DNA of 64,000 nt from Acidobacteriota bacterium (GTDB lineage: Bacteria > Acidobacteriota > Vicinamibacteria > Vicinamibacterales > UBA8438), in NCBI GenBank assembly GCA_009861545.1, contig VXME01000135.1, forward strand, positions 1 to 64,000, written 5' to 3'. This document shows, piece after piece, positions 2,749-23,255 of this stretch. Position 1 is the first letter of the stretch. Each line of letters starts with the position of its first letter. The notes below the pieces were generated by a model. It had not been told where the DNA came from and ran no database searches. It saw nothing but the letters and a program-made list of their open reading frames with translations. A program made the position numbers and the translations under genes.

Positions 2749-2775
2749 TGGTTCCTCGCACTACCGCCGGGCAGC

Positions 2776-6739: not shown

Positions 6740-6798
6740 CAGGAGTAATGCCACTGTGTGAAGGGGCGGCCCAACCCGTCGACTACCAGAGGAGCGCC

Positions 6799-7707
6799 GT
6801 GTTCTTCCAGACCATGTTCCGCGAAAAGGCGCTGGCCCGACGTGCGCGGCGAGAGACCGTCGACGCCCGGCTGCAGGTCACGGCGCCCCACGAGTGGCTG
6901 TTGGTGTCGGGACTGGGCGTGGCGCTGGTCGTGCTGCTGGCCTACGGCCTGCTCGGTCGGGCGGAGCGCAGCCTCTCCATCGAGACGGTGCTGGTCCGGC
7001 CCGGGGAGCGCATCGACGTGGTGGCCAGCGTGTCCGGCGTGGTCGTCGACGTGCTTTCGGAGGTCGGCGACACGGTAACCCCTGGTCAGCCCATCGCGCG
7101 CGTGCGAACGCCGGAAGCGGAGCGATGGGGCGCCGTCCTGCGCCGCCTCCGCGAGTCGATGGAGAGCGGCGACGCCCCACAGGACATGGCGGCCAACGAG
7201 AACCTCCGCGCCCTGCTTGCCTCGGCGCGCTCCGTGACCGCGCAACGCGGCGCCGATGGCTTCATGACGGAGGACATCACGACTCCCCGGCGCGGCGAAC
7301 TGGTGACGCTCGCACTGGCGGCCGGCCAGCGCATCGCGGCCGGCGAGTTCGCGGCCCGCATTCGCGCAGCATCCGCCCGCCCCGTGGAGGCGCTGGGGTT
7401 CGTCACGCGCGAGGAGGCCATGCGTCTTGTGCCGGGCATGCACGCGCAGGTGCGTCTGGCCGTGCCAGGCACGGGCGCGCCCCAGGTCCTGCCGGCGCGC
7501 GTCGAGGATGTATCCCCCCGCGTCGTACCGCCGCCGCGGTGGCTGACCGAGTTCGGGCTCGAGCCGCCGGTGCGCTCCCATCTGTTGCGCGCCACGCTGA
7601 TGGAGCCTGACCCGCTGCAGGTCATCGACGGCGCCAGCGGCACCTTGCGCATCGTCCTGGGTCACCGTTCGTTCGCCTCCCTGCTCTTCGGGAGCGACGG
7701 CGACTGA
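6799..7707 (+). CDS. NHLM-type RiPP exporter, HlyD-like membrane fusion protein
   Basis: A 302-residue periplasmic adaptor with a single N-terminal membrane segment (about 36-55, LLVSGLGVALVVLLAYGLLG), a biotinyl-lipoyl-like half motif (VLVRPGERIDVVASVSGVVVD, then VGDTVTPGQPIARVRT) and a beta-barrel C-terminus. The short coiled coil and the FREKALARR...VDARLQVT start fit the NHLM bacteriocin secretion protein family. GTG at 6799 is preferred because GAGGAG lies 4 bases upstream; an ATG at 6748 with AGGAG at 2 bases is the alternative. Its TGA overlaps the ATG of the peptidase-transporter, showing translational coupling. It probably links the two inner-membrane ABC proteins to an outer-membrane exit. 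Confidence 0.85.
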   Translation: MFFQTMFREKALARRARRETVDARLQVTAPHEWLLVSGLGVALVVLLAYGLLGRAERSLSIETVLVRPGERIDVVASVSGVVVDVLSEVGDTVTPGQPIARVRTPEAERWGAVLRRLRESMESGDAPQDMAANENLRALLASARSVTAQRGADGFMTEDITTPRRGELVTLALAAGQRIAAGEFAARIRAASARPVEALGFVTREEAMRLVPGMHAQVRLAVPGTGAPQVLPARVEDVSPRVVPPPRWLTEFGLEPPVRSHLLRATLMEPDPLQVIDGASGTLRIVLGHRSFASLLFGSDGD

Positions 7708-9899
7708 TGGGCCTGGCGTCCGGGCGCGAACGCCGGCGACGCGTCCGCACGCCGCCGCTGCTGCAAAACGATCAGACCGAGTGCGGCGCGATCAGCCTCG
7801 GCATCGTGCTCGCGTTCTTCGGCCGCTGGGTGCCTATAGAAGAGTTGCGCGCCGCGTGCGCGGTGACTCGCGACGGCAGCAACGGCGCCGACATCTGGCG
7901 AGCCGCCAGGGAGTTCGGTCTCGAGGTCCGGGGCTGGCGCAGGGAGCCCCATCAGCTCCACCGCATGCGCATGCCGCTCATCCTGTACTGGAAGTTCAGC
8001 CATTTCCTGGTCCTGGAAGGCCATGCACGTGGCCGCTACTACGTCAACGACCCCGCCAGCGGGCGCAGGACCATCGACGCGGACGAGTTCGACGAGGCGT
8101 TCACCGGCGTGGCCCTGAGTTTCGAGCCGGGCCCGCAATTCGAGCCGGGCGGGCGTCGCCCCGGCATCGTGCGCCGCCTGTGGCCCTGGCTCCGGGACGG
8201 CAAGGCGGCCCTCGCCTTCGCGTTCACGTGCGGCTTGTTGCTGTCGTTGACGGCGCTGGCCCTTCCGCTGCTCCTCGGCGTGTTCGTCGACTACGTGTTG
8301 AGCGGCCGGGAGCCTTCCTGGGCGGCGGTGCTGATCGCCGGCGCAACTGCCGCAGGAGGGTTCGTCTACCTCCTCACCTGGCTCCGGGAACGCTGCCTGC
8401 GACTGCTCTCGGTGCGGCTCTCGATCGCGCGTGCGGACCGCTTCATCGCGCGCCTGTTCAGACTGCGCACCGAGTTCTTCACCCACCGCTACGCCGGCGA
8501 TCTGACCGCGCGGATGCAGTCCATCAGCGAGGTCGCCACGGTGGCGACCGGCCAGTTCGTCGGTGTCGTCATCGAGCTCGTCGCCAGTCTTCTGTTCGTG
8601 GTGCTCATGTTCGTCTACGACCCGCTGTTGGCCGCGGTGGTGGTCGCCCTGGGGGCGGCGAGCGCCGTTCTCACGCGAACGCTGACCCGCTCGCGGATCG
8701 ACGAGAACCGCCGGTTGCAGCGCGAAGCAGGCCACCTGCAGGCGACGGGCATGCACGGATTGCGCACCATCGACAACCTGCAGGCGGTGGCGGCCGAGAA
8801 CGACTTCTTCGTTCACTTCACCGGCTTCCAGGCCCGCGAGCTGTTGGTCCGACAGCGCTTCACGGAGCTCGGCCACGTGATTGCGGCGCTGCCGGATCTG
8901 TTCCTGATCGCCGGCAACGCCGCCGTGCTCGGCCTGGGCGGCCTGCGCGTGATGTCGGGCGACATGACCCTTGGCGCGATGATGGGCTTCTACATGTTGG
9001 CGGCGAGCTTTCTGCTGCCCATCGGGCGGTTCGTGCAGTTCGCGGACCTGTTCCAGGTGCTCGACGGCCACCTGCAGCGCCTGGACGATGTCTTCGACGC
9101 GCCCGAGGACGCCCTCCTGACAAGGCGCGGCGAGGCGCTCGCGGAAAGGCCGCCGGCTTTCGCGAGGAGGCTGCGACTGACGGGGCGGTTGGAGTTGCGG
9201 AACGTGACGTTCGGCTACAAGGCCACCGAGCGACCCCTGCTGGAGGACGTGAGCCTGGTCGTCGAACCCGGCCAGCGCGTGGCCATCGTCGGGCCGACCG
9301 GTTCGGGAAAGTCCACGCTGGCCTCGCTGGCGGCGGGCATCCATCGGCCCTGGTCCGGCGAGGTCCTGTTCGACGGTCAGCCCCTCGCCAGGGTGCCGCG
9401 CGATCTCCTGACGGACTCCGTGTCGCTCGTCGACCAGCACATCTTCCTGTTCGCCGGATCGGTGCGCGACAATCTGACCATGTGGGATCGGGAGACGCCG
9501 GATCAGGCCCTGGTGGCCGCGGCCACGGATGCCGACATCCATGCGGAGATCATCGCGCGGCCCCAGGGCTACGACGCGCCCGTGCTGGAGGGTGGGTGCA
9601 ACTTCAGCGGCGGCCAGCAGCAGCGTCTGGAACTCGCCAGGGCGCTGGTGTCGAATCCAAGCGTCCTGATTCTCGACGAGGCGACCTGTGCGCTCGACCC
9701 CCTCGCCGAACTGCGTATCGACGACGCCCTGCGCCGCCGCGGCATCACGTGCCTGATCGTCGCCCATCGCCTGAGCACCATCCGGGACAGTGATCTGATC
9801 GTGGTGCTCGACCACGGTCGCGAGGTTCAGCGCGGGACCCATCAGGAACTGATGGCGGACACGGAAGGCCTCTACCGTCAGCTCATGGAGGCCGAATAG
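7707..9899 (+). CDS. NHLM-type peptidase-containing ABC transporter (C39 peptidase/permease/ATPase)
   Basis: This 730-residue transporter should cut the leader after a double glycine and export the core peptide. The N-terminal C39 protease carries C26 (QTECGAISLG), H99 (SHFLVLEG) and D115 (VNDPASG). An ABC permease region with several membrane helices follows (about 165-450). The ATPase has Walker A GPTGSGKST at about 529, signature FSGGQQQRLEL at about 633 and Walker B LILDEAT at about 654. All catalytic residues are present. It is coupled to the upstream fusion protein and followed after 2 bases by a second ABC protein, the normal NHLM arrangement. The expected substrate is the NHLP precursor encoded at 16554-16823. 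Confidence 0.93.
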   Translation: MGLASGRERRRRVRTPPLLQNDQTECGAISLGIVLAFFGRWVPIEELRAACAVTRDGSNGADIWRAAREFGLEVRGWRREPHQLHRMRMPLILYWKFSHFLVLEGHARGRYYVNDPASGRRTIDADEFDEAFTGVALSFEPGPQFEPGGRRPGIVRRLWPWLRDGKAALAFAFTCGLLLSLTALALPLLLGVFVDYVLSGREPSWAAVLIAGATAAGGFVYLLTWLRERCLRLLSVRLSIARADRFIARLFRLRTEFFTHRYAGDLTARMQSISEVATVATGQFVGVVIELVASLLFVVLMFVYDPLLAAVVVALGAASAVLTRTLTRSRIDENRRLQREAGHLQATGMHGLRTIDNLQAVAAENDFFVHFTGFQARELLVRQRFTELGHVIAALPDLFLIAGNAAVLGLGGLRVMSGDMTLGAMMGFYMLAASFLLPIGRFVQFADLFQVLDGHLQRLDDVFDAPEDALLTRRGEALAERPPAFARRLRLTGRLELRNVTFGYKATERPLLEDVSLVVEPGQRVAIVGPTGSGKSTLASLAAGIHRPWSGEVLFDGQPLARVPRDLLTDSVSLVDQHIFLFAGSVRDNLTMWDRETPDQALVAAATDADIHAEIIARPQGYDAPVLEGGCNFSGGQQQRLELARALVSNPSVLILDEATCALDPLAELRIDDALRRRGITCLIVAHRLSTIRDSDLIVVLDHGREVQRGTHQELMADTEGLYRQLMEAE

Positions 9900-9901
9900 G
9901 T

Positions 9902-12874
9902 ATGGCGGACGCAACCGGACGGTCCGCCCCTCAAACCGACGGGCAGCGCTTGGACTCCGCTGTGGAGGTTGCCGCCAGCGGGCTCGCGGACCTCGCCCTG
10001 GCACATGGGGCGCCGTTCGCCGGAGGCGGCAATCGGCCCATTCGCCTCGACGATCCCGATGCGCTGTGGTTCGTCGCCCGCGGTTCGGTGGACGTGTTCG
10101 TGGCGCGCGAACAGGACGGCGGCGCACTGGTCGAGTTCAAGCATCTTCTGCGCGCGACGCGCGGCCGGCTGCTGTTCCAGGCGGACGAGGGTCCGAACGT
10201 AATCGTAGCCAAGGGGTTACCCGATTCCGAACTGCGGCGCGTGCCGTGCGCAGCCTTCCTCGCGGCGGACGAAGGCGGCGCCGTCGTCGATCAGGCGGAC
10301 GCCTGGATTGCCGACATCTCGGCCGCGGTGGCTCTGGACGTCACTCATCGGCAGCCGATCGACTGTTTTCTTGCCGCCGGCGTGCTGGCCGACCTGAACG
10401 CCGGCGAGGTCGTATCGACCAAGGGCGGCGTCGTGTGGATGTCGGGCAGAGAGGTCGGTCTGGCGTTTCTGGGCACGGAGGAGCCCGACCGTACCGGTTC
10501 CGGCTTCGTGCCCGTCGCGCCGGGCAGTTGGGTCAGCGTGTCCGGCCCGACCCGGCAGCGGGGCGTCTCGTCACGGGAACTGCATCGCGAGGGGCGTCTG
10601 TTGGCGGCGTTGGCCGAGTTCCATCGCCTGTCGCTGGGCGCCCACGACCTCAATCGCCGCCTGTTGCTGGCCGATGCCGTCAACCTGCGCGCCGCGCAAA
10701 CGCGGCATCGCCGGGAAAGCGAAGATGCCGCGCGCCGCAGTCTCTGCGACGTGGTCGACGCGCGCGGCGCCCGGCCGGAACAAGCAGGCGGCGCCGCGCT
10801 ACAGGAGGCGCTGGCCTTGATCGGCCGCCATGAGGGCATCCGGTTTCGGGCGCCGCGGGCGCCCCAGGTGCGCCAGGGCGCCGGCGCCGAGACCGGTCCG
10901 TCGCTGGACGGTATTCTGACCGCGTCGGGCGTGCGCGGGCGCGACGTCGCGCTCGAGGCCAGGGATCGCTGGTGGCTCGGCGACAGTGGGGCGATGCTGG
11001 CGTTTCGGCGCGAGGACGGCGCGCCAATCGCGCTGCTTCCGGGCCGGTCGGGGCGCTACCGCATGGTGGATCCGGCGTCGGGACGCGCTGAATCGGTGAA
11101 CGCCGGCCGGGCTGCGGCGCTGCACGCGAACGCCGTCTTCTTCTATCAGTCGCTGCCGGATGGTCGGGTGTCCGGCGTGGGCGCCCTGGCACGGGTCGCG
11201 TTCCACAGGTGGGGGGGTGACGTGGTCCGGTTCGCGACGGCCGGACTGCTGGCGGGCCTGGCCATGCTGGCGCCCGCCGTTCTTGTCGGCGTCTTTGCCG
11301 ATGAGGTAGCGCCGGCGGGGCGCGTGGGAACGCTGGCCTGGCTGACGGCGGGGATGGTCTTGCTGGCGCTGACGGTGGGCTTGCTCGAAGTGATCGAGGG
11401 AACGGCCTTGATGCGTCTCGAAGGCCGCGCGGCGGCTCGCCTCACCGCCGCGCTCTGGGACCGCCTGCTGGACCTGCCGGCCGTCTTTTTCCGCAACTTC
11501 ACAGCCGGCGACCTGGCGACGCGCGCCATGGCGTTCCACGATTTGCGCAATCACTTGTCGGGCGTGGTCATGGGCGCACTGTTGTCGACCGTCTTCCTGC
11601 TACCGACGTTCGTCCTGCTCTTCCTTTACGACACCGCGATGGGCTGGTTGGGGCTTGCGGGTGGCCTCGCTTCGCTGGCCTTCACCGTCACACTGGGCCT
11701 GCGTCAGGTGCCTCATCACCGGCGGTTGCTTGCGGCCGAGCGCTCGCTGGCCGGCGTACTGCTGCAGTTGATCGGCGCCGCGCGAAAGCTGCGCGCCACG
11801 GGCAAGGAGTGGACGGCGTTTACGCGGTGGGCGCAGGGCTACCGTGAACAGAAGCGCAGCGAGATGCACGTCGGCGTCCTGAACGAGCATCTGGTGGCGT
11901 TCACGGCTGCCGCGCCCCTGCTGGCCACCGCCGCGCTGTTCGCGGTGGCATACGAGAGGGGACCCGCCGCGCTGTCGGCAGGCGCCTTTCTGACCGTCTA
12001 CGCCGCATACATGGTGTTGATGTCGGCCATTGCCGCGCTCGGCCGCACCGTGTCGGACGTGGCCGCCATCGTGCCGGCCGGCGAGCAGGTCTCGCCGATC
12101 CTCGAGGCTTCGCCCCGGGGCGCTGCCGGCGAAGGACCCGCGCCCGAGCTGCGCGGCGAGGTGCGCCTGGACAACGTGAGCTTCCGCTACGCCGAGGACG
12201 GCCCGCTGGTGCTGCGCGACGTCGCCATCCACGTTCGACCCGGCGAGTTCGTGGCGCTGGTCGGCGGTACGGGCACCGGCAAGAGCACGGTGCTGCGTAT
12301 CCTCCTGGGACTCGAGAAACCCTCGTCCGGCGTGGTGTACTACGATGGTCATGATCTCGAGCGCGTCGACCTGCGCGCCGTGCGGCAGCAGGTCGGCGTG
12401 GTGGTCCAGGACGGTTCGCTGCAGCCGCGGACGGTGCGCGACAACATCATCGGCCTGGCCGCGGACCTGACGCTGGACGACGCCTGGCGTGCGGCCCGGC
12501 TCGCCGCCGTCGATGGCGACATCAGGGCGATGCCGATGGGCATGCTCACCGTCGTCACCGAGGGCTCGGCGGTGTTCTCCGGCGGGCAGATCCAGCGCAT
12601 CATGCTGGCTGCCGCACTCGTGCGCCGGCCGCGCGTGCTGCTGCTCGACGAGGCGACCAGCTTCCTCGACAACAACACCCAGGCACAGGTCATGGCGCGG
12701 ATCGAGGAACTCGCCGTCACCCGTATCGTCGTTGCGCACCGGCTGTCCACCATCCGCAAGGCGGACCGCATCTACGTGTTCGACCAGGGGCGGGTGGCGC
12801 AGCAGGGGACCTTTGCGCAACTGATCGAGACGCCGGGCGTCTTTCGCGACCTGGCGCGTCGCCAACTGGCTTGA
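9902..12874 (+). CDS. NHLM-type ABC transporter, second ATP-binding/permease protein
   Basis: A 990-residue inner-membrane protein. Instead of a peptidase it has a long N-terminal region with the family-typical DDPDALWFVARGSVDVFVA segment (about 50-70) and a further linker domain. Permease helices lie at about 430-720. The ATPase has Walker A GGTGTGKST at about 788, signature FSGGQIQRIML at about 892 and Walker B LLLDEATSFLD at about 913. In NHLM systems this protein is thought to pair with the peptidase-transporter, giving a heterodimeric exporter. It ends 43 bases before the convergent CoA-transferase gene, so the two RiPP operons meet tail to tail. Confidence 0.9.
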   Translation: MADATGRSAPQTDGQRLDSAVEVAASGLADLALAHGAPFAGGGNRPIRLDDPDALWFVARGSVDVFVAREQDGGALVEFKHLLRATRGRLLFQADEGPNVIVAKGLPDSELRRVPCAAFLAADEGGAVVDQADAWIADISAAVALDVTHRQPIDCFLAAGVLADLNAGEVVSTKGGVVWMSGREVGLAFLGTEEPDRTGSGFVPVAPGSWVSVSGPTRQRGVSSRELHREGRLLAALAEFHRLSLGAHDLNRRLLLADAVNLRAAQTRHRRESEDAARRSLCDVVDARGARPEQAGGAALQEALALIGRHEGIRFRAPRAPQVRQGAGAETGPSLDGILTASGVRGRDVALEARDRWWLGDSGAMLAFRREDGAPIALLPGRSGRYRMVDPASGRAESVNAGRAAALHANAVFFYQSLPDGRVSGVGALARVAFHRWGGDVVRFATAGLLAGLAMLAPAVLVGVFADEVAPAGRVGTLAWLTAGMVLLALTVGLLEVIEGTALMRLEGRAAARLTAALWDRLLDLPAVFFRNFTAGDLATRAMAFHDLRNHLSGVVMGALLSTVFLLPTFVLLFLYDTAMGWLGLAGGLASLAFTVTLGLRQVPHHRRLLAAERSLAGVLLQLIGAARKLRATGKEWTAFTRWAQGYREQKRSEMHVGVLNEHLVAFTAAAPLLATAALFAVAYERGPAALSAGAFLTVYAAYMVLMSAIAALGRTVSDVAAIVPAGEQVSPILEASPRGAAGEGPAPELRGEVRLDNVSFRYAEDGPLVLRDVAIHVRPGEFVALVGGTGTGKSTVLRILLGLEKPSSGVVYYDGHDLERVDLRAVRQQVGVVVQDGSLQPRTVRDNIIGLAADLTLDDAWRAARLAAVDGDIRAMPMGMLTVVTEGSAVFSGGQIQRIMLAAALVRRPRVLLLDEATSFLDNNTQAQVMARIEELAVTRIVVAHRLSTIRKADRIYVFDQGRVAQQGTFAQLIETPGVFRDLARRQLA

Positions 12875-12917: not shown

Positions 12918-14132
12918 CTACCGACGAGCGGCGTCCCGGATGACGCCGGCGTCGTGCAGCGCCTCGAGTTCCGCGGTGCTCAGGTCCAGCTCCGCGTCGA
13001 GCACCTCGTCGGTGTGCTCGCCGAGGCGGGGCGGGCGCTTCATCGAGACGCACGATGCCGAAGGTCCCGGAGCGAACCCCAGCATCCGTACCTTGCCATG
13101 CACCGGCAGATTCAGTTCGTGGATGAAGCCGCGCGCGGCCAAGTGCCGGTCCCGGTGCAGATCGGCCGTGTCCAGACACGCCGAACAGGGCACGCCGGCG
13201 CCGGCGATGGTCTCCATGGCCTCGTACTTGGTGCGTTCACGGGTCCAGGCAACGATCTCCTCGCGCAGCGCGTCAGCGTTCTGCAGGCGCCAGCGCGGGC
13301 TGTAGAAGCGCGGATCGCTGCGCATGTCGGCGCGATCCATGGCCTTGCACAGGGCGTCCCAGTGGGCATCGGTGAGGGGTTGGAGGTAGACGTAGTCATT
13401 GGCGCCGAACGGTTTGCACGGATACAGGCCGGCCGGCGGCAGACCGTGTGCGTTGCCGGTGCGCGGCGCCGCCCGCGCGCCCCACCTCGAGCCGGTGAAG
13501 AAATGCGAGCGCAGGTAGTACGTCACCGCCTCCTGCATCGACAACTCGACCAACTGCCCTTCACCGGTCCGCTGCCTTTGCGCCCAGGCCGCGAGCACCG
13601 CCATCGCCGCCTGGAGGCCGGTACCCGAATCGGCCATCGTCGGACCGGGCATCAGCGGCGGCCCGGCCGCCTCGCCGTTGACGGAGAACGCCCCCGCCGC
13701 CGCTTGCGCGGTCGGATCGACGCTGTGGAAGCCGGCGTAGGGGCCGCTGCCGCCGAAACCCTTGATGCGTACGTAAATCAGGCCCGGGTGGATGGCGCCG
13801 AGCGTTTCGTAGCCGATATCGAACCGTTCGATCACGCCCGGACCGTAGTTCTCCACGAAGACATCGAACACCGGCACCAGTCGCAGCAACAACTCTCGAC
13901 CCTGCCCGCTGCCGAGGTCCACCGCCAGGCTGCGCTTGTTCGCGTTCCAGGCGCAGAAGAACGCCGAGTAGCCGCTGGAGCCGTCGCGTCCGAAGACGCG
14001 GGCCCCGTCGCCAGGGTCGGGCGGCTCGACCTTGACCACGTCCGCGCCGAACCACGCCAGGATTTGCGTACAGGATGGTCCGGCCTCGTACTGGGTCATG
14101 TCGAGGACCTTCATTCCATCCAGTGCCGGCAT
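12918..14132 (-). CDS. class III (CaiB/BaiF) CoA-transferase 1 of RiPP cluster
   Basis: A 404-residue enzyme of the class III CoA-transferase family, which moves CoA between carboxylic acids through an aspartyl-CoA intermediate. Family motifs visible: LDMTQYEAGPSCTQILAWFGADVVKVEPP at the N-terminus (nucleotide-binding half), NKRSLAVDL, ENYGPGV, and the presumed catalytic D168 in MADSGTG. The ATG at 14132 has GGAGGTG shortly upstream. It is a tandem copy of the next gene: equal length, separated by 25 bases, similar throughout. Class III enzymes are interlocked dimers and paired genes can form heterodimers (BbsE/BbsF is a known case). Occurrence inside a RiPP operon is unusual; the acceptor is unknown. 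Confidence 0.85.
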   Translation of the reverse strand: MPALDGMKVLDMTQYEAGPSCTQILAWFGADVVKVEPPDPGDGARVFGRDGSSGYSAFFCAWNANKRSLAVDLGSGQGRELLLRLVPVFDVFVENYGPGVIERFDIGYETLGAIHPGLIYVRIKGFGGSGPYAGFHSVDPTAQAAAGAFSVNGEAAGPPLMPGPTMADSGTGLQAAMAVLAAWAQRQRTGEGQLVELSMQEAVTYYLRSHFFTGSRWGARAAPRTGNAHGLPPAGLYPCKPFGANDYVYLQPLTDAHWDALCKAMDRADMRSDPRFYSPRWRLQNADALREEIVAWTRERTKYEAMETIAGAGVPCSACLDTADLHRDRHLAARGFIHELNLPVHGKVRMLGFAPGPSASCVSMKRPPRLGEHTDEVLDAELDLSTAELEALHDAGVIRDAARR

Positions 14133-14157: not shown

Positions 14158-15372
14158 TCACTCGAATCGCGGCGGGCCGCCGATTGCGCCGGCGTCTCGC
14201 AGTGCATCGAGTTGCGCATCGTCCAACGCGAGCTCGGCGCCGAGCAGTTCGTCGGTGTGCTCTCCCAGGCGCGGCGGGCGCTTCACCGGTACGCGGGACC
14301 TGGACATGCGGGGCGCGAAACCCGGAACGCGCACCGTGCCGTGCACCGGCAGGTCCAGCTCCTCGATGAAACCGCGCTCGGTCAGGTGCCTGTCGCGCAG
14401 CAGTTCTGCCGTGTCCAGGCACGCGGCGCAAGGCACGCGGGCCGCGGCCAGGGTCTCCATGGCTTCGAGCTTGGTCCGCGCCCTCGTCCACGAGCTGATC
14501 TCCTCGCGCAGCGCCCGGTGATTCTGGATGCGCCAGCGCGTGCTGTAGAAACGCAGGTCGACGCGCAGCTCGGGGCGGCCCATGGCCGCGCACAGCGATT
14601 CCCAGTGCTGCTCCGTCAGCGGCATGAGATAGACATGGTCGTTGGGGCCGAACGGCTTGCAGGGATAGAGATTGCCTGGCGGCACGTCGCCGGCGTTACC
14701 GGTGCGCGGTGCCGCCCGGGCGCCCCAACGCGAGCCGATGGCGCCGCGTCCGCGCACGAAGAACGTCATGGCCTCCTGCATCGACAGGTCGATTTGTTGG
14801 CCCCGTCCGGTGCGCAGCCTCCGCACCCAGGCCGCCAACACGGCCACCGCCGCGTATACGCCGGCGCCGGCATCGCCCATCGATCCCGGCATCATCGGCG
14901 GTCCTTGCGGTTCGCCGTTGATCGAGAACGCGCCTGCCGCTGCCTGTGCGATCGGCTGCTGGACCGCGAAGCCGGCATACGGGCCGCGGTTGCCGAACCC
15001 CTTGATGCGTGCATAGATGAGCCCCGGATTGACGGCGCGCAGCACTTCGTAGTCGATGTCGAGACCCTCCATCACGCCGGGCCCGTAGTTCTCCACGAGC
15101 ACGTGGAACGTCGGCACCAGGCGCAGAAACAGTGCGCGGCCCTGGTCCTTGCGGAGGTCGATCGCCACGCTTCGCTTGTTGGCGTTCCACGCGCAGAACA
15201 AGGGGGCGTACGCCTCGTTGCGAGCCCGGTCCACGCCGCGCGCCCGGTCGCCGCGTCCGGGCATCTCGACCTTCACGACGTCGGCGCCCAGCCACGCCAA
15301 TGCCTGCGTGCACGCAGGACCGGCCTCGAACTGCGTCATGTCGAGGACCCTCATGCCGTCCAATGCAGGCAA
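14158..15372 (-). CDS. class III (CaiB/BaiF) CoA-transferase 2 of RiPP cluster
   Basis: The second 404-residue class III CoA-transferase. It shares LDMTQFEAGPACTQALAWLGADVVKVE, NKRSVAIDL, ENYGPGVMEG and LYPCKPFG with copy 1; the presumed catalytic aspartate is D167 in MGDAGAG. The frame stays open upstream to 16263, but the start is placed at TTG 15372. This aligns exactly with the MPALDGM start of copy 1, gives the same length, and has AGAGGAG about 9 bases upstream. It lies between copy 1 (25 bases) and the 334-residue protein (32 bases), so all are probably one transcript from the precursor promoter. Heterodimer formation with copy 1 is inferred. Confidence 0.83.
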   Translation of the reverse strand: MPALDGMRVLDMTQFEAGPACTQALAWLGADVVKVEMPGRGDRARGVDRARNEAYAPLFCAWNANKRSVAIDLRKDQGRALFLRLVPTFHVLVENYGPGVMEGLDIDYEVLRAVNPGLIYARIKGFGNRGPYAGFAVQQPIAQAAAGAFSINGEPQGPPMMPGSMGDAGAGVYAAVAVLAAWVRRLRTGRGQQIDLSMQEAMTFFVRGRGAIGSRWGARAAPRTGNAGDVPPGNLYPCKPFGPNDHVYLMPLTEQHWESLCAAMGRPELRVDLRFYSTRWRIQNHRALREEISSWTRARTKLEAMETLAAARVPCAACLDTAELLRDRHLTERGFIEELDLPVHGTVRVPGFAPRMSRSRVPVKRPPRLGEHTDELLGAELALDDAQLDALRDAGAIGGPPRFE

Positions 15373-15404: not shown

Positions 15405-16409
15405 TCAGTTCCCGGCGGGACGGACGACCATCGCCGCGTAGGCCTTGGCGGCGACGCGGCCGTGTGCGACGACGACCTTGATGTGGTTGATGGTCTGGTG
15501 GACCCGGTAGACCCCTGCGGGGCCGATCAGCCGCGTGGAACGCGGCCACGCCCGCAGGCCCTCCGCCTTCGCAGGCACGCACCACCCCTTGTCCGCCAGC
15601 CGGTCGATCACCGGCAGCCAGCCCGCGCGGTCGATGCGAGACCACTCCACGGGACGAAACAGCTCCAGCCCCAGGCGGGGCGAGATGCCGCACGCGGTGA
15701 CATCGAGGCTGAGCACGGCCCCGGGTCGGGTGAGCTCGCTCGTGTCCCTCACTACGGACATGGCCGCGGCGGGAGGGCCCGGCCAACGCAGTCGTTCGAG
15801 CAGGCCGGGAAGCTCGGCAGTGTCGATGCGATGCACGACGAGGCGCACGGCGCGCCGCCGCGCCGGCATCACGCCCGCCTGGCCGACGTGGCTCGTGCCG
15901 GAAAGGGCCTCGCACACGCGCTCGACCTGCCGCAGCTCCGCGGCGTCGGCGCGCCAGCCGGCCGCGGCCCACAGTGCGGCGACGGTGGCTGCCGGATCGT
16001 CGTGGAGTCCCCGCGCGGCGCCTTCCGAAGGGGTGCCGGGCACGAAGAAGATGCCCGGCGGCGCCGGTTCCTCCGGCAGGACCTCCGGTACGTCGTACTC
16101 GAGGACGACGGCGCCCTCCTTGCGGGACAGAAACGAGGCGGGGTCGCCCGCCTGCCGGGCGAGACAGGCGCCGAGAGCGGCCGCGGCCGAACCGGCCGGC
16201 GCCACTTCGCCGGCGCGGATGTAGTGCGCGGCAAGGGCGGAGCCGCGGACGGGAAACACGCAAAAGTCAGCCTCGGCCGCTTCGCGGCAAAGCGCGAACT
16301 CGAAACCGAATTGCTGGTCGATCACACCGATGGGCAACCGCCCGGCCATCGCGCGAAGACGCTCATACCCCCCGCCGCTCAGCAGGGCCGGAGGGAACAC
16401 CCGCCTCAT
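15405..16409 (-). CDS. uncharacterised RiPP-cluster protein, 334 residues
   Basis: A soluble protein with no recognised catalytic motif. Notable segments are GVIDQQFGFEFALCREAAEADF near residues 27-48, VLSLDVTACGISPRLGLELF near 230, KGWCVPAKAEGLRAWP near 275 and a C-terminal TINHIKVVVAHGRVAAKAY. From memory, similar FGFE...EADF and NHIK...AKAY segments occur in unknown proteins beside NHLP/Nif11-type precursors, but this could not be checked. It lies between the precursor (145 bases) and the CoA-transferases. The start is uncertain: ATG 16409 has GGAGG only 1 base away, and the frame is open upstream to about 16503 without a good start. A leader-binding or core-handling role is conceivable, not shown. 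Confidence 0.7.
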   Translation of the reverse strand: MRRVFPPALLSGGGYERLRAMAGRLPIGVIDQQFGFEFALCREAAEADFCVFPVRGSALAAHYIRAGEVAPAGSAAAALGACLARQAGDPASFLSRKEGAVVLEYDVPEVLPEEPAPPGIFFVPGTPSEGAARGLHDDPAATVAALWAAAGWRADAAELRQVERVCEALSGTSHVGQAGVMPARRRAVRLVVHRIDTAELPGLLERLRWPGPPAAAMSVVRDTSELTRPGAVLSLDVTACGISPRLGLELFRPVEWSRIDRAGWLPVIDRLADKGWCVPAKAEGLRAWPRSTRLIGPAGVYRVHQTINHIKVVVAHGRVAAKAYAAMVVRPAGN

Positions 16410-16553: not shown

Positions 16554-16823
16554 TCAGACGGGCGAGCACCAGCCGCCGCCGCCGGCGACGGTGCGCATGT
16601 CCTCCTCGGCGAGCGCGGCCGAAGGCGGAAGCACCAGGTGCGCGGTCGTCGCGCTGTCCTCGTGCACCTCGATGGTGAAGTCGTCCGGGATGGACAGATC
16701 CAGCTCTGCCTCCATCACCGCCTTGGGATCGGCCAGCAAACGAGCCCGGAATTCCTCGTTCTCGACCGCCTTGTTTCGCACGTAGTCGTGAAACTCCTCC
16801 ACGGTCTGAAACTCTTGAGCCAT
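16554..16823 (-). CDS. NHLP-leader RiPP precursor peptide with short core
   Basis: An 89-residue precursor. The leader is a nitrile-hydratase-like NHLP leader: EFRARLLADPKAVMEAELDL, then PDDFTIEVHEDSATTAHLVL and AEEDMRTVAGG. The double glycine at the end is the expected C39 protease site, leaving a core of only seven residues, GGWCSPV. If cutting follows the last glycine of the four, only WCSPV remains. The ATG at 16823 is chosen because AGGAGGTG lies just upstream; the longer open frame to 16970 lacks this. It is the first gene of the leftward operon containing the 334-residue protein and both CoA-transferases, and the likely cargo of the NHLM exporter at 6.8-12.9 kb. Confidence 0.88.
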   Translation of the reverse strand: MAQEFQTVEEFHDYVRNKAVENEEFRARLLADPKAVMEAELDLSIPDDFTIEVHEDSATTAHLVLPPSAALAEEDMRTVAGGGGWCSPV

Positions 16824-17115
16824 CCATCCACCTCCTGACAAGCCTCGATCTGCCAGCAGCAATGCCTCACTGTTTGTACACTGAGCCACTACAACGGCAC
16901 AAGCGCAATTGTGATTATTTGGAGATAGTATGCTATAGAACGCGATATTAACGCGACTATCCGAAGCCAATCGTTAGGCAGAGTAACATTCGACTATCTG
17001 TAGCGGGATCGTCGGAGACGCTTGGCTTGCCGCGGATGCCAACCGCCACTGCGCGGCGCCTCACCCTGTCGAGTCGATCCAGGCCCGCGGACAGGCTATA
17101 TCGCTGGTCGATGCC
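16824..17115. promoter_or_regulatory. divergent promoter region of the RiPP cluster
   Basis: This 292-base gap separates the precursor operon (leftward) from the flavoprotein operon (rightward) and is clearly richer in A and T than its surroundings between about 16870 and 17000. It includes TTGTGATTATTTGG, TAGTATGCTATAGAA and a dyad CGCG-ATATTAA-CGCG (16941-16955). No single -35/-10 pair with ideal spacing stands out. It very likely holds both promoters and any operator of the cluster. No gene is seen in it. Confidence 0.5.
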
Positions 17116-18516
17116 GTGAAGGACGCCGACGCGCCGATTAGGGCTGTGGACATTGCGCCGTTGCGTACCGCCGTCGCGTTGCGCGAAAGCGATGAAGGCC
17201 GCGAGGCGGCGAGCACCGACTTCGGTCGCATGGTCCGCAAGTTGCCCCGTGCGGTGGTGACGCCCCAATCGCCGGAGGACGTACGTCGGACCCTGGACTT
17301 CGCCCGTCACACGCGCTGCCCCGTAGCCGTTCGCGGCGCGGGTCACTCCCAGGCCGGGCAGTCGCTGACCGACGGCGGCATCCTGCTCGACCTGACCGGC
17401 CTCGACCGCATCGGCGAGATCCGGGACGGCGCGGTTCGCGTTCAGGCAGGAGCGACGTGGCGCAGGCTCGTCCGCCACGTCCAGGCCCGGGGCTATCTCC
17501 CGCCGGTACTGACGACGAGCCTGGACGTCACCGTCGGCGGCACGCTGTCCACGGGTGGCCTCGGCGCCTCTTCGCATCGTTACGGCGCGCAGACGGACAA
17601 CGTCGACGAGCTCGTCGCGGTGACCGGAGACGCCCGACAGTTGCGTTGCTCGCGAACGGAGAACCCGGCGCTGTTCGACTGCGTGCGATGCGGGCTGGGC
17701 CAGTTCGCGGTGATTACGGAGGCACGAATCCGATTGCGCAGAGCGCTGCCCGATGTGCGCACCTTCTTCCTGGCCTACGACGACATCGAAGCGCTCATGC
17801 AGGACCAGCAGCAAGTCGTTTCCGACGACCGCTTCGAGTACATCGCCTCCACTTGCCTTCCTCGCGCGATGGGGCTCGAGCGTCTGCTGGCGCGCGGGTC
17901 GCCGTTCGCGGAGAGACGCTACGTCATGAGCCTGACGACCGAGTTCGACGGCGAGTGCGACTCCGACCGGGCCCTCGCCGGCCTGCACGGCGGCCGGCTT
18001 CTGGGCGCGGAAGATGGCTCGGCCCGAGATGTGCCCTTCGGCCCGGATCGGTTGGGGCCCGGGGACCGAGCGGACCGGCGTCTGGCGCATCCGTGGATCG
18101 AGGGGATCCTTCCCTGGCGCAACGCCGGGCGCTGCGTCGCGGAAGTACTGGCCGGCCTGCCGTCAGCATTGCCGACCGACACGGCCGTGCTCCTGTGGGC
18201 GGCGCGCCGCGACCGCTTCGGCGCCCCCATGCTCGCGCTTCCCGCCGGCGAACTGCTGATGGGATTCGCCATTCTGCCCGCCGTCAAGCCGGCGGCGCTG
18301 CCACGGTTGCTGCCGGGTCTGGAGGCGGCCGGCCGGCGGTTGACGACGATGGGCGGCAAGCGCTACCTGTCCGGCTGGATCGACTACGACCACGAGCAGT
18401 GGCGCGCGCACTTCGGCGACCTGTGGCCGCGGGTCGTGGATTGCAAGGCGGCGTTCGACCCGCGCGGCATACTCGATTCGGGTTTCATCCGCTATCGGCC
18501 GGCGCAGCCGGCATGA
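17116..18516 (+). CDS. FAD-linked oxidoreductase, cytokinin-dehydrogenase-like
   Basis: A 466-residue flavoprotein with a PCMH-type FAD-binding domain: PRAVVTPQSPEDVRRTLDFA at 45-64, VRGAGHSQAGQ with H77 as the likely covalent FAD attachment site, and GGTLSTGGLGASSHRYGAQTDN around 140, a hallmark of the cytokinin dehydrogenase group. The C-terminus YDHEQWRAHFGDLWPRVVDCKAAFDP is typical of the family. Such enzymes oxidise amines, alcohols or C-N bonds with oxygen or another acceptor. The GTG start is weakly supported (no clear ribosome site). It is divergent from the RiPP precursor and followed after 21 bases by the toroid protein; a role in oxidising the Trp-Cys core or a partner substrate is only inferred. 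Confidence 0.8.
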   Translation: MKDADAPIRAVDIAPLRTAVALRESDEGREAASTDFGRMVRKLPRAVVTPQSPEDVRRTLDFARHTRCPVAVRGAGHSQAGQSLTDGGILLDLTGLDRIGEIRDGAVRVQAGATWRRLVRHVQARGYLPPVLTTSLDVTVGGTLSTGGLGASSHRYGAQTDNVDELVAVTGDARQLRCSRTENPALFDCVRCGLGQFAVITEARIRLRRALPDVRTFFLAYDDIEALMQDQQQVVSDDRFEYIASTCLPRAMGLERLLARGSPFAERRYVMSLTTEFDGECDSDRALAGLHGGRLLGAEDGSARDVPFGPDRLGPGDRADRRLAHPWIEGILPWRNAGRCVAEVLAGLPSALPTDTAVLLWAARRDRFGAPMLALPAGELLMGFAILPAVKPAALPRLLPGLEAAGRRLTTMGGKRYLSGWIDYDHEQWRAHFGDLWPRVVDCKAAFDPRGILDSGFIRYRPAQPA

Positions 18517-18537: not shown

Positions 18538-19527
18538 GTGGACGAACGGTTGCGGCAAGCCGCGCGGGCGGCGGTCGAGCGCGGCCTCGACTTCCTGGAG
18601 AGCGTCGTGGCGCCGAACGGGAGCTGGCCCTGCTGGCGATACGACAATACTGGCCTCGTCGGCGCCCGGCACCGCGAGTATCCGCCCTTCGCGGCCGCGC
18701 TCGGATCCCTCGCGCTCGACGCCTGCCACCATCCCGGAGCCCGGGCACTGGTCGCGCGGACGCGCGAGTTCATCAGAAGCCGTATGCAGTACCCCGGCGT
18801 ATGGAGTTACCCGAGCCTGCCTCCGTCCGTCGACGATACGGCGATCTGTGCGCTGGCGGTGGGTCCGCACCCGTGGCTCCGCATGGGCAGCCTTTGGGGT
18901 CGGAATCTCGACGTGCTCCTGGCGCATCGCGACGGCGACGGTCGGTTCGTCCTGTGGATGCCGGGCGACGATTGGCCGCGCGGACTCGACAACGAGGTCG
19001 ACGCCGTGGTGAACGCCAACGTGCTCGCGTACATGGGAGACCACGCCGAGACGCAAGCGGCGCAGCGCTGGATCGAAGCCGTGGTCGCGGAGCGGCGCGA
19101 GGCCGACGCCTCGCCGTACTACATCGAGCCCGTGGATCTCCATTTCGCGCTGGCGCGCGCGAGCCGCTTCCGCGACGGCATCCTCGGCGAGCTGCGTCCG
19201 ACCCTGGCGAGCCGCATCCTGGAGCGCCTCGGCGCCGACGGCGGGTTCGGCGACCCCATGCGTACGGCGCAGGCGCTGTCGGCGCTCGACATGCTCGCCT
19301 TCGATCTCGACGAAGGCGTGCTGGGCGCGGTCGTCGGGAGGCTGATCGAGGCCCAACGTCGCGACGGAAGCTGGCGGCCGTGTGTGGCCTGGAAGGAACC
19401 ACCCGGATGGGCCGACTGGGTGGCGGCCAACGAGGGTCCGTTGCACGTGCTGCCGCCGCGCGGCTTCGCCTCCGAAGCGATGACCACGGCGTTCTGCATC
19501 GAAGCCATGCAGAGGTCGCTCCGATAG
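18538..19527 (+). CDS. half-size terpene-cyclase/prenyltransferase-like alpha/alpha toroid protein
   Basis: A 329-residue protein built of helical-barrel repeats like the squalene cyclase/prenyltransferase family: DFLESVVAPNGSWPCW, GVWSYPSLPPSVDDTAICALA and IEAQRRDGSW (QW-like). S97-V-D-D-T-A resembles the DxDDTA general-acid motif of class II terpene cyclases with the first Asp replaced by Ser. At half the length of squalene-hopene cyclase it may be a single-domain cyclase, a binding protein, or inactive. The start is GTG with GAGGAG 6 bases upstream. It follows the flavoprotein after 21 bases and shares its promoter. It is unclear whether it acts on the peptide or a separate lipid. Confidence 0.65.
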   Translation: MDERLRQAARAAVERGLDFLESVVAPNGSWPCWRYDNTGLVGARHREYPPFAAALGSLALDACHHPGARALVARTREFIRSRMQYPGVWSYPSLPPSVDDTAICALAVGPHPWLRMGSLWGRNLDVLLAHRDGDGRFVLWMPGDDWPRGLDNEVDAVVNANVLAYMGDHAETQAAQRWIEAVVAERREADASPYYIEPVDLHFALARASRFRDGILGELRPTLASRILERLGADGGFGDPMRTAQALSALDMLAFDLDEGVLGAVVGRLIEAQRRDGSWRPCVAWKEPPGWADWVAANEGPLHVLPPRGFASEAMTTAFCIEAMQRSLR

Positions 19528-19558: not shown

Positions 19559-21997
19559 ATGTTGTGGCAGGATCTCCGGCACGCTCTTCGGCGTCTGGTG
19601 CAGGACCGGTCGCTCAGCGTCATGGCGGCGGCGGCGCTCGGGCTCGGCATCGGCGCCAACGCCACCGTCTTCGCGATCGTCCATGCCGCGTTCATCCGCG
19701 GCCTGCCGTTCGACGAGCCCGGACGGATCATCAGCGTCTCGTCACGCGACGGCGACAGCGGACAGACCGGGGGTGTCTCGCTTCGGGACTTCGATGACTA
19801 TCGGGCCGCGGCCGCCTCGTTCAGCGGACTGGCCGCCTTCACGGCCGGCGGGACCGCGAACCTGAGCGACGCCGGCCGCCCTCCCGAGCGGGTCAACGGA
19901 TCGCTGGTCACACCGAACACGTTCCGCCTGCTCGGCCAACCGGTGCTGCTCGGCCGGGACTTCCGGCCCGAGGAAGGGGAACGGGGCGCGGAGCGAACCA
20001 TCATCCTGAGCCACCACGTGTGGCAGGACCGCTACGCGGGCGATCCCGGCGTGCTCGGCCGGGTGGTGCGGGTCAACGACGAGCCGTCCATGGTCGTCGG
20101 CGTCATGCCGGAAGGGATGCGGTTCCCGCTGAACGCGGATACCTGGCAGCCTTTGCAGCCGACCGCTGCTCTGGACCGCCGCGACAACCGGGTGCTGGCG
20201 ACCGTCGGCCGGCTGGCTCCGGGCGTCGATCTCGACGCGGCGGATGCCGAGATGCGCGCGCTGGCGGGTCGGCTCCGCCAGCAGTATCCCGACACGAACG
20301 AGCACACGGACGCCGTGGTCCAGACGTTCAACGACTGGGCGAACCCCGCCAGCATCAAGCTGAGTGTCTTGACGTTGATGGGCGTGGTGGCGTTCGTTCT
20401 GCTCATCGCCTGCGCCAACGTTGCCAACCTGCTGATTGCACGCTCGGCGCAGCGGGCGCGCGAGGTGGCCATCCGGGTCGCGCAGGGCGCCACGCGGTGG
20501 CGGATCGTCCGCCAGTTGTTGACGGAGAGCCTCGCGCTCGGCGCGGCGGGCAGCGCCGCCGGCCTTGGGCTGTCGGCCGCCGGCATTCGCCTGCTGGACG
20601 TCGCCACACGCGACATCGGCAAGCCGTTCTGGATGACCTTCCACCTCGACGGCGCGGTCGTCGCGTTCCTCGCCCTCGCGTGCGTCGGCTCGAGCGTGCT
20701 CTTCGGGCTCGCGCCGGCGCTGCACGTCTCGAAGACGCCGCTCGGCGAGCTGCTGCGGGAAGGCGGGCGCACCGGCGCCGGCGGGGTGCGCGCACGCCGC
20801 CTGACCGCGGCGATGGTGGTCGTCGAGGTGGCGCTCGCGGTTGTCCTGCTGGCGGGCGCGGGCCTGATGATCCGCAGCTTTCAGGAGTTCTACTGGATCG
20901 ATCTCGGGTTCGACTCCGCTCGAGTGCTGACCGGACAAGTCACGCTGGTCGCCCGGAAGTACCCCGAACCGGCGGATCGGCTCCGGTTCGTCGAGCAGCT
21001 CCAGCGGCGCCTGGACGCGATGCCCGGGATTCGCGCAGCGAGCGTCGCCACCACTCTCCCTCTCTTCGGCGGGTTGCAGCGGTCGCTCGATATCGACGGG
21101 CGTCCGTCGTCTGACGGGGGGCTCGCACCCACCGTGACGACGCTGAGCGTCGGCGCCCGGTATCTGGAGTCGCTCGGCGTCTCGCTGTCGCGGGGGCGCG
21201 CGCTGACGCTGGAGGACGGCCGCGCCGGGGCGGAGTCGGTGGTGGTGAACGCGCGTTTCGCCGCCCGGTTCTTTCCCGGCGAGGACCCTCTCGGGCGGCG
21301 GATCCGCCTGCAGGCGCGGGACGACCCGGCCAGCCCGTGGCTGACGATCGTCGGCGTGAGCCCGAGCATTCGGCAGGCCGCCCTGCGGGAGCCCGACCCC
21401 GATCCGGTCGTCTACCTGCCTTATCGGCTCTACACCGGCAGCCCGGCCGCGCCGCAGTGGTCGCTCGCCCTGCAACTTCTGACGGCGGGCGAGCCTGCCG
21501 CGTTCGTCCCGCAGCTTCGCGCGGCGGTGCGGGGCGTCGACCCCGAACTGCCGGTGTTCGGCGCCCAGTCGATGTCGGCCCGGCTCCGGGACGTGCGCTG
21601 GACGTACCTGCTCTTCAGCGGCCTGTTCGGCATCTTTGCGGCGATCGCGCTGGTCCTCTCGGCGGTCGGGATCTACGCGGTCACGGCGTACTCGGTGACG
21701 CAACGGACGCAGGAGATCGGCATCCGCATGGCGCTCGGCGCGCCGCCCGGACAGGTGATCTGGGTCGTTCTGCGCCGCGGGCTCGCGCAGGTGGGGGCCG
21801 GGCTGATCGCGGGATCGGCCGGCGCGTTCGCGGTCGGCCGCCTGATCGAGAGCCTGCTGGTGCAGACGTCTCCCCGCGACCCCGTGACGCTGGCGATGGT
21901 GCTGGCGGTGCTGGCGGCGGCGACGGTCGTCGCCTGCGTCGGCCCGGCGCGCCGGGCGGCCGGGATCGATCCGGTGGAGGCGCTGCGGTCCGACTGA
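19559..21997 (+). CDS. ADOP-type MacB/FtsX permease (copy 1)
   Basis: An orphan ABC-type permease of about 812 residues with the acidobacterial ADOP layout: two MacB periplasmic-core plus FtsX modules in one chain and no ATPase gene nearby. Visible are the N-terminal DLRHALRRL start, AALGLGIGANATVFAIVHA as first membrane segment, VAFVLLIACANVANLLIARSAQRAREVAIRVAQGATR in the middle, and a C-terminal repeat (AVGIYAVTAYSVTQRTQEIGIRMALGA) ending in DPVEALRSD. The start is ATG 19559 or the GTG one codon earlier. Its role is unknown; ADOPs are abundant in Acidobacteriota. It lies 31 bases after the toroid gene, but membership in the RiPP cluster is doubtful. Confidence 0.85.
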   Translation: MLWQDLRHALRRLVQDRSLSVMAAAALGLGIGANATVFAIVHAAFIRGLPFDEPGRIISVSSRDGDSGQTGGVSLRDFDDYRAAAASFSGLAAFTAGGTANLSDAGRPPERVNGSLVTPNTFRLLGQPVLLGRDFRPEEGERGAERTIILSHHVWQDRYAGDPGVLGRVVRVNDEPSMVVGVMPEGMRFPLNADTWQPLQPTAALDRRDNRVLATVGRLAPGVDLDAADAEMRALAGRLRQQYPDTNEHTDAVVQTFNDWANPASIKLSVLTLMGVVAFVLLIACANVANLLIARSAQRAREVAIRVAQGATRWRIVRQLLTESLALGAAGSAAGLGLSAAGIRLLDVATRDIGKPFWMTFHLDGAVVAFLALACVGSSVLFGLAPALHVSKTPLGELLREGGRTGAGGVRARRLTAAMVVVEVALAVVLLAGAGLMIRSFQEFYWIDLGFDSARVLTGQVTLVARKYPEPADRLRFVEQLQRRLDAMPGIRAASVATTLPLFGGLQRSLDIDGRPSSDGGLAPTVTTLSVGARYLESLGVSLSRGRALTLEDGRAGAESVVVNARFAARFFPGEDPLGRRIRLQARDDPASPWLTIVGVSPSIRQAALREPDPDPVVYLPYRLYTGSPAAPQWSLALQLLTAGEPAAFVPQLRAAVRGVDPELPVFGAQSMSARLRDVRWTYLLFSGLFGIFAAIALVLSAVGIYAVTAYSVTQRTQEIGIRMALGAPPGQVIWVVLRRGLAQVGAGLIAGSAGAFAVGRLIESLLVQTSPRDPVTLAMVLAVLAAATVVACVGPARRAAGIDPVEALRSD

Positions 21998-22184: not shown

Positions 22185-23255
22185 GTGGCCCCCAAGTCCG
22201 CCGCCGCGATCCCCGGCGCCCTCGATCTGCTGATCCGCAAGGCGGTCTCGCAGGAACGCTGGAGAGCGATTCTGACGCCCTACGAGAGGCCGGACAACCG
22301 TCGCAGTTTGCTGCAGCTTGCCGTCACCCTGCTCTTGTACGGCGCCGCGTGGGCCCTACTGCTCCGGAGCGTGGAGGTCGGCTACTGGGCGACCGCGACC
22401 GTCGCATTGCCTGCCGCGGGTCTGATGGTGCGGCTGATCATCATTCAGCACGACTGCAGCCACGGTTCCTACTTCACGTCGCAACGCGTGTGCAACGCCG
22501 TAGGCACCGTAGTCGCGATGCTGTCCCTCACGCCCTACGACTACTTGAAGCGGATTCACGTAGCGCACCACGCACACTCGGGCAACCTCGACAGGCGCGC
22601 CGGCGGTGACATACCCACGCTCACGGTCGCCGAGTACACCGCGCTGGGATGGTGGCGCCGGCTCGGGTACCGCCTGATTCGCAACCCGTTCGTGTTGATG
22701 GGCGTCCTGACTCCACTGCAGTTCGTCGTCGTGCATCGCTTTCCCTGGGGCATGCCGCGTTCCTGGACCCGGGAATGGCGGTCGGTATGGGGGACCAACG
22801 CCGCCCTGGCCGCGGTGCTGGTGGGCATCTGGCTTGTCGTCGGCGTCGAACGCCTGGAACAGATCCTGATAATCCAGGGCATGATCATGCTGTACGGGGG
22901 CGCGTTCGCCGGCTGGCTCACCCATACGCAGCATCAGTTCGAGGACGCCTACTGGCACCGGTTCGGCGCGTGGGACTACTTCGACGCCGGGTTGCAGGGC
23001 GCGTCCTGGCTCGCGCTCCCGAAACCGCTGCAATGGCTGACCGCCAGTATCGGTCTGCATCACGTGCACCATCTGAGTACCCGCATTCCGAACTACCGCC
23101 TGCAGCGCTGTCACGACGAGAATCCGGAACTGTGGTCCGCCCACCGAATCACGTTGCGGAACGGGTTCAAGGCGCTGAATCTGGCGCTCTGGGACGAACG
23201 GGGCGGCAAGCTGATTTCGTTCGGCGAATACCGCCGGTTGGCCCAATCGACCTGA
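22185..23255 (+). CDS. membrane fatty acid desaturase
   Basis: A 356-residue integral membrane di-iron desaturase. The three histidine clusters are all present: HDCSH at 89-93, HVAHHAH at 125-131 and HHVHH at about 290. Four or more hydrophobic segments are seen (about 45-60, 72-88, 210-230, 232-248). The arrangement fits the omega-6/delta-12 group that introduces double bonds in acyl chains, although related enzymes hydroxylate or act on carotenoids. The start is GTG with AGGAGC 4 bases upstream. It stands alone between the ADOP gene and the converging efflux operon and may supply lipid to the P450/sulfotransferase genes nearby, which is inference. Confidence 0.88.
   Translation: MAPKSAAAIPGALDLLIRKAVSQERWRAILTPYERPDNRRSLLQLAVTLLLYGAAWALLLRSVEVGYWATATVALPAAGLMVRLIIIQHDCSHGSYFTSQRVCNAVGTVVAMLSLTPYDYLKRIHVAHHAHSGNLDRRAGGDIPTLTVAEYTALGWWRRLGYRLIRNPFVLMGVLTPLQFVVVHRFPWGMPRSWTREWRSVWGTNAALAAVLVGIWLVVGVERLEQILIIQGMIMLYGGAFAGWLTHTQHQFEDAYWHRFGAWDYFDAGLQGASWLALPKPLQWLTASIGLHHVHHLSTRIPNYRLQRCHDENPELWSAHRITLRNGFKALNLALWDERGGKLISFGEYRRLAQST

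Follow-up and report, generated by a model that had tools for sequence, protein, structure and literature searches.

The window, meaning the whole stretch of DNA analysed here, corresponds to the initial 64 kb of contig C135 from a genome of 6.35 Mb (G000). It contains a short precursor peptide gene surrounded by exporter and candidate modification genes, which are arranged as follows.

6748..7707, plus strand: HlyD-like membrane fusion protein of the NHLM exporter (HlyD_3, 1.2e-07 in a longer frame; also found next to ABC1/ABC2 in the orthologous clusters)
7707..9899, plus strand: NHLM exporter subunit 1, C39 double-glycine peptidase and ABC transporter (TIGR03796, 870.6 bits, cut-off 853.3; Peptidase_C39, 4.7e-29)
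9902..12874, plus strand: NHLM exporter subunit 2, ABC transporter (TIGR03797, 724.6 bits, cut-off 709.4)
12918..14132, minus strand: CaiB/BaiF class III CoA-transferase, copy b, starting at 14132 or 14219 (PF02515, 2.8e-103; Asp at residue 168)
14158..15354, minus strand: CaiB/BaiF class III CoA-transferase, copy a (PF02515, 9e-101; Asp at residue 161; formyl-CoA transferases in the PDB)
15405..16409, minus strand: P334, 334 residues, predicted ABBA-fold peptide/indole prenyltransferase, the next gene after the precursor (AlphaFold2 model, Foldseek, VIA-align)
16554..16823, minus strand: precursor peptide gene, 89 residues (translation, TIGR03793 match, orthologues)
16578-16823, minus strand: leader of the precursor, followed by the GGWCSPV codons (16557-16577, with WCSPV at 16557-16571) and the stop codon (16554-16556)
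17116..18516, plus strand: FAD-linked oxidase, cytokinin-dehydrogenase-like (FAD_binding_4, 1e-34; Cytokin-bind, 1.6e-10; PDB 6yaq, 6.5e-45)
18538..19527, plus strand: single-domain class II terpene cyclase-like protein with the motif PPSVDDTA, Asp at residue 99 (PDB profile match; AlphaFold2 pLDDT 87.9; VIA-align)
19559..21997, plus strand: MacB/FtsX-type permease directly after the cyclase, membership uncertain (position conserved in G404 only)
22185..23255, plus strand: fatty-acid-desaturase-like protein, role uncertain (PF00487, 4.1e-26; near the cluster in all four genomes)

Both TIGR03796 and TIGR03797 scored above cut-off, which identifies an NHLM-type C39 peptidase/ABC exporter pair, and no LanM domain was found among the window proteins scanned with Pfam. 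Relatives of P334 are encoded in 11 of 28 genomes of the family, the genome of the window counted. Three clusters are clearly orthologous, with P334 identities of 84% (G404), 71% (G418), and 68% (G403), and they lie in metagenome-assembled genomes of Vicinamibacteria/Acidobacteria. The order precursor, P334, and two CaiB-type CoA-transferases is retained together with the exporters in all four genomes, and the P334 and CoA-transferase proteins are 68–92% identical over the four clusters. On the G404 contig, the sequence beyond the desaturase gave no match to further window genes, and the P450, sulfotransferase, and efflux genes of the window therefore probably lie outside the pathway. One of the ORFs in the window (26525-28519, plus strand) fuses a GPP34 (Golgi phosphoprotein 3) domain to a cytochrome P450 and was not found beside the G404 cluster. 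At the start of the contig, adjoining the cluster region, a NACHT-domain protein and a phage-type integrase are encoded (124-3912, minus strand).

The precursor ORF is preceded by a ribosome-binding-like sequence, AGGAGGT, at 16830-16836. Its 89-residue product (MAQEF...AEEDMRTVAGG, then GGWCSPV) reads MAQEF...AEEDMRTVAGGGGWCSPV up to the stop codon, and it scored 61.1 bits against the NHLP leader family TIGR03793 (cut-off 50.9). The last position of the profile corresponds to residue 82, and thus seven residues are left. The gene that the original prediction had described as a precursor with an extremely short core is therefore present as proposed; it lies on the minus strand, and its leader ends in AGG. 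The orthologous precursors end in AGG-KNGWCSPV (G404), AGG-NWCSPV (G418), and AGG-HWCSPV (G403), so that the conserved WC(S/T)P(V/I) ending anticipated for a true core is found as WCSPV in all four clusters, and the long cores that would have marked a truncation do not occur in the orthologues. The codons of WCSPV carry synonymous changes only (Ser TCG/TCC/TCT, Pro CCC/CCG), and the stop codons of the four genes are TGA, TGA, TAG, and TAG. Because the three orthologous clusters share the leader, the gene order, and the WCSPV-stop ending, the precursor is neither a chance ORF nor a truncation. The original prediction gave the core as GGWCSPV, of which the Gly-Gly part did not hold: the spacer between AGG and Trp varies in both length and residues (GG, KNG, N, and H), and the conserved core is thus WCSPV with the di-glycine as spacer. 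No second NHLP precursor, the other candidate for the real substrate, was found in the 64-kb window. Judged from these sequences, the ultrashort WCSPV is a true core. The mature peptide probably has just five to eight residues.

P334 and its relatives gave nothing meaningful by sequence in Pfam, NCBIfam, or the PDB, and none of the curated Pfam and NCBIfam families, ABBA included, matched P334 at E ≤ 1. An AlphaFold2 model was built from an 18-row alignment, which took in 18 of the 21 search matches and set aside the fusion proteins L027 and L030 as well as the fragment L058; its mean pLDDT was 88.3 and its pTM 0.89. At E ≤ 0.001, Foldseek gave 17 matches in the PDB, each an aromatic prenyltransferase, with CloQ at the top (1.8e-5) and CymD, DMATS1, EpzP, AtaPT, FgaPT2, AnaPT, and TleC among the further matches. 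The top VIA-align row was MpnD, an indole prenyltransferase (Z 16.5, rmsd 4.3, 287 aligned residues, 12% identity), and all 50 rows listed were aromatic or indole prenyltransferases. Enzymes of the isoprenoid-synthase fold (trans-IDS, PalQ/ComQ-type) did not appear among the structural rows listed, which does not in itself exclude that fold. We take each of these structural matches (CloQ, CymD, MpnD, and the others) to be an ABBA enzyme. Six columns are invariant across the 18 members, namely E37, R189, K281, K311, K322, and Y324, and we infer that they serve the usual base and diphosphate-binding roles. No characterised prenyltransferase resembles P334 detectably in sequence; the assignment rests on the predicted fold. 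P334 is most likely a cryptic ABBA prenyltransferase, with prenyl transfer predicted from the modelled fold.

The P334 family extends beyond Acidobacteriota to cyanobacteria as well as to one spirochaete, one deltaproteobacterium, and one Azospirillum. P334 itself matched neither plasmids nor viral contigs, and two distant relatives did match four plasmids. A search of 297 genomes for PF11991 (Trp_DMAT) gave no match, and as its controls were also silent, it says nothing on this family. On a contig labelled Spirochaetia (L079, 9567-11023), a precursor with the core FSWAGVGREPWEL directly precedes a P334 protein 51% identical to that of the window, which suggests horizontal transfer or a mislabelled bin.

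The cores encoded beside P334 are rich in Trp. Among the NHLP precursors with an identifiable tail in P334 loci, 23 of 24 contain Trp, or 17 of 18 after collapsing orthologues, in a count that omits L025 (a 64-residue leader without a core), the decayed precursors L051 and L052, and the cyanobacterial and Azospirillum cores, which would contribute Trp and non-Trp cases alike. Trp is present in 2 of 12 control NHLP precursors without a neighbouring P334 (2 of 9 collapsed; Fisher p = 3e-4), the controls having been drawn from the same phylum sample and restricted to precursors with a GG end. The control loci span about 3 kb or less and come from genomes without a P334 match, save G368, which has matches on other contigs. 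Of the nine residues counted, only Trp is so associated; in the distinct P334-associated cores, Cys occurs in 8 of 18, Tyr in 5, and Ser in 11. Tails are 5–28 residues long beside P334 and 14–34 in the controls. Examples are NYETW, HKGHDGPSW, GKHGGTTMPW, MFDGWGNDW, and LCCCW; Trp is the last residue in 7 of the 18 distinct cores and is internal in WCSPV. A YcaO cluster (L057) contains the one Trp-less NHLP core beside P334, LCCCG. The Nif11/NHLP cores near a P334 homologue on a Nostoc plasmid also have no Trp, and the cores shown near the Pseudanabaena and Azospirillum homologues end in Trp.

Several further precursors were observed at P334 loci. On a plasmid of Azospirillum sp. B510 (L124, 996-10086), eight NHLP leader-like ORF matches, two of them overlapping, lie beside a P334-family gene, and the two tails shown end in RKW and KPW. 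The genome of the window has a second NHLP cluster on contig C124 (L012, 7839-18698), which holds paralogues of P334 and of the cyclase and also encodes a JmjC-type cupin and a PhyH oxygenase; the tail of its precursor, SAASWANDRGEDDNDRWNNAPQWWDANDYDE, is identical in G402 and G403. Decayed additional precursor copies ending in GGSHW (L051) and GGMVPWD (L052) lie near intact precursors and suggest turnover of short Trp cores.

P334 could be a general peptide prenyltransferase that merely sits with Trp-containing cores and prenylates another site, such as the Cys thiol within WCSPV, the end of the peptide, or a heterocycle. The Cys adjoins the Trp and CSPV forms a C-terminal four-residue Cys motif, the L057 relative lies beside a core with Cys and no Trp, and the ABBA enzymes of cyanobactin pathways act on several residue types. 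We consider prenylation at another site unlikely, however, given the difference between Cys and Trp in the distinct cores (8 against 17 of 18), the many indole/Trp prenyltransferases among the structural neighbours of P334, and the fact that two characterised ABBA-fold peptide enzymes in similar settings, MppC (PMC12715784) and, as reviewed, NctPC (PMC13290415), modify Trp.

The product of 18538-19527 is predicted, from profile and model, to be a single-domain class II terpene cyclase of the MstE/drimenol-synthase type. Searched against the PDB, a 10-row profile gave E-values of 2.4e-18 for squalene-hopene cyclase, 3.3e-17 for drimenol synthase, and 7.1e-6 for MstE, and the model has the alpha/alpha-barrel cyclase fold, with AsDMS (Z 32.4, rmsd 2.3) and MstE (Z 29.0) as VIA-align matches. 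D99 and T101 are invariant in the 10 members aligned. D99 aligns with D333 of AsDMS, so that the catalytic Asp of the DxD(D/T) motif is present, and a PDB chain of the D333N variant (9m7d) has Asn at exactly this position of the profile; in the window cyclase, Ser takes the place of the first Asp of DxDD. Eight homologues were found in 7 of 11 genomes searched, and all eight adjoin a P334 gene. In G179, a genome of the same phylum, a 761-residue ORF (L030, 7594-9879, minus strand) joins a P334 domain (residues 71-416) to a cyclase-like domain (437-756). Because the expected substrate of such a cyclase is an isoprenyl chain, its pairing or fusion with P334 favours the prenyltransferase reading. 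Among the WCSPV clusters, the cyclase was found in those of the window and G404, and not in G418 (99% complete) nor at the WCSPV locus of G403; G418 therefore probably makes an uncyclised version. Another P334-cyclase fusion (L027, 8734-11043) has a seemingly reversed domain order relative to L030. In two YcaO clusters, an NHLP-leader-like domain forms the N terminus of a terpene-cyclase-like protein (L023, 12956-14263, minus strand; L056, 4890-6191, plus strand).

The best PDB matches of the FAD-linked oxidase are cytokinin dehydrogenases. A flavoenzyme is present in all four WCSPV clusters, in G418 and G403 as another subtype (33–34% identical), and homologues recur in eight P334 loci. The two CoA-transferases are 67% identical and both have a catalytic-type Asp (161 in copy a, 168 in copy b), which we take to be the catalytic residue. 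The pair is present in all four WCSPV clusters, and no CoA-transferase was found in the other P334 loci covered by the profile search. We know of no class III CoA-transferase that acts on a RiPP, and a literature search linking CoA-transferase, RiPP, NHLP, prenyltransferase, and Acidobacteria found nothing. The CoA-transferases, the flavoenzyme, and the cyclase might be unrelated catabolic neighbours of a RiPP made by P334 alone, in line with the resemblance of the CoA-transferases to catabolic formyl/oxalate-type enzymes and with G418, where the cyclase is missing and the flavoenzyme is just 34% identical. Such a coincidence is improbable in view of the gene order and the 68–92% identities kept over four clusters, the P334 gene beside every one of the eight cyclase homologues, and the eight P334 loci with flavoenzyme homologues.

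It is also conceivable that P334 is an ABBA-fold peptide-binding or scaffold protein and that the pathway yields a pentapeptide oxidised to a Trp-Cys cross-link, such as a tryptathionine-like bridge formed by the flavoenzyme. This would fit the adjacent and invariant Trp and Cys, the flavoenzyme in all four clusters (though of two subtypes), and the lack of a characterised P334 homologue detectable by sequence, but it is made very unlikely by the invariant basic and Tyr columns across distant P334 members and by the class II terpene cyclases, enzymes expected to act on an isoprenyl chain, that are repeatedly paired with or fused to P334. A CaaX-like reading, with CSPV as the CaaX box for the alpha/alpha-barrel protein, was rejected, as the best matches of that protein are terpene cyclases, with Rab geranylgeranyltransferase (1ltx) far down the list at rank 41, and as the paralogous precursor on C124 has no Cys. 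Crocagin biosynthesis, which we take to involve short Trp cores and the proteins CgnB/CgnE, came to mind since several P334-associated cores end in Trp, and was dropped on the ABBA-type model of P334 and the absence of a PDB sequence match. CgnB/CgnE are reported to have apparently evolved from Zn aminopeptidases (PMC10070186).

Among the closest known systems is NctPC, in which a prenyltransferase of the ABBA fold and an MstE-like cyclase are reported to be fused, and which geranylgeranylates Trp and cyclises the chain (PMC13290415); terpenoid RiPPs of this type are credited there to Hubrich et al. By that account and the models, both systems combine an ABBA-fold peptide prenyltransferase of low similarity to known ones with an MstE-like cyclase in a RiPP cluster. 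The NctPC domains are fused whereas the window has two genes, a fused form of that kind occurring in L030 of G179 only, and the window differs from the NctPC described by its WCSPV core, its two CoA-transferases, and its cytokinin-dehydrogenase-like flavoenzyme. In the mpp cluster from Moorena, the ABBA enzyme MppC geranylates a single Trp in a lanthipeptide precursor and requires its folded, Nif11-like leader, which was likened to NHLPs (PMC12715784). MppC and, by prediction, P334 are ABBA-type peptide enzymes with a leader precursor and a Trp target, but the substrate of MppC is a lanthionine-ring core made by LanM, a domain not seen among the window proteins scanned. In the Paenibacillus system PalQ/PalX, the C-terminal Trp of the core DNVRRFFW is prenylated on an NHLP-leader precursor (PMC10853753). 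The precursor of that system and the window precursor have an NHLP leader and a very short Trp core in common, while PalQ is described as related to isoprene synthases and as preferring a C-terminal Trp, in contrast to the ABBA-fold model of P334 and the internal Trp of WCSPV. The window cyclase shares the class II cyclase domain fold and the catalytic Asp with MstE and AsDMS, whose PDB ligands are farnesyl or geranylgeranyl dihydroxybenzoate and farnesyl pyrophosphate; the substrate proposed here is instead a peptide-borne chain.

We propose that the cluster is probably a RiPP pathway for an ultrashort, isoprenoid-modified peptide that is prenylated on Trp and, in this genome, terpene-cyclised, with the individual steps predicted. 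P334, with the NHLP leader bound, would attach an isoprenyl chain to the Trp, the sole aromatic residue of WCSPV, and the class II cyclase would protonate and cyclise that chain; the Trp prenylation and cyclisation steps are drawn from fold and association. The cytokinin-dehydrogenase-like flavoenzyme may then oxidise the prenylated indole or the peptide, and the CoA-transferases may act in one of two ways, by making a CoA thioester (of the C-terminal Val, for instance) or by providing an acyl-CoA. Finally, as the protein family supports, the C39 peptidase of the NHLM exporter would cleave after AGG for export of the product, with the 1–3 non-conserved residues before Trp either retained or trimmed. 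The original prediction was right about a true core with a conserved ending and had not considered a terpene route. In place of the di-glycine cap, acylation, or thiol modification that it suggested, the neighbouring genes point to Trp prenylation and terpene cyclisation, and C-terminal activation, which it had also named, may occur in view of the two CoA-transferases.

Several observations stand against the proposed Trp prenylation and cyclisation. There are the Trp-less cores of L057 and near the Nostoc homologue, the Trp of WCSPV is internal, the cyclase was not found in G418 or at the WCSPV locus of G403, and the first Asp of the DxDD motif is replaced by Ser; furthermore, prenylation implies no role for a CoA-transferase. 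A more elaborate product, a five-residue meroterpenoid, is a quite unlikely extension, in which prenylation at C3 of Trp and cyclisation would yield an indolenine captured by the adjacent Cys thiol, and the CoA-transferases would activate the C-terminal Val by thioester formation with CoA, in preparation for release, transfer, or ring closure.

A literature search returned no title or abstract opening that describes the WCSPV cluster type. Terpenoid RiPPs are already a known kind, and Trp prenylation and cyclisation are chemistry reported for systems such as NctPC, MppC, and PalQ. Against this background, the cluster is new in having so tiny a core, in splitting the enzymes, in its prenyltransferase family without annotation, and in its pair of CoA-transferases. 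The P334 family, by its modelled ABBA fold presumably peptide-prenylating, is invisible to the Pfam and NCBIfam models searched, and it is joined to cores of 5–28 residues that nearly always contain Trp. The CoA-transferase pair is an unexplained and possibly new RiPP step. Because one core occurs with (G000, G404) and without (G418) a terpene cyclase, the WCSPV clusters form a natural experiment, and if the proposed pathway is true, they would represent a very small platform for isoprenoid attachment and cyclisation on a ribosomal peptide.
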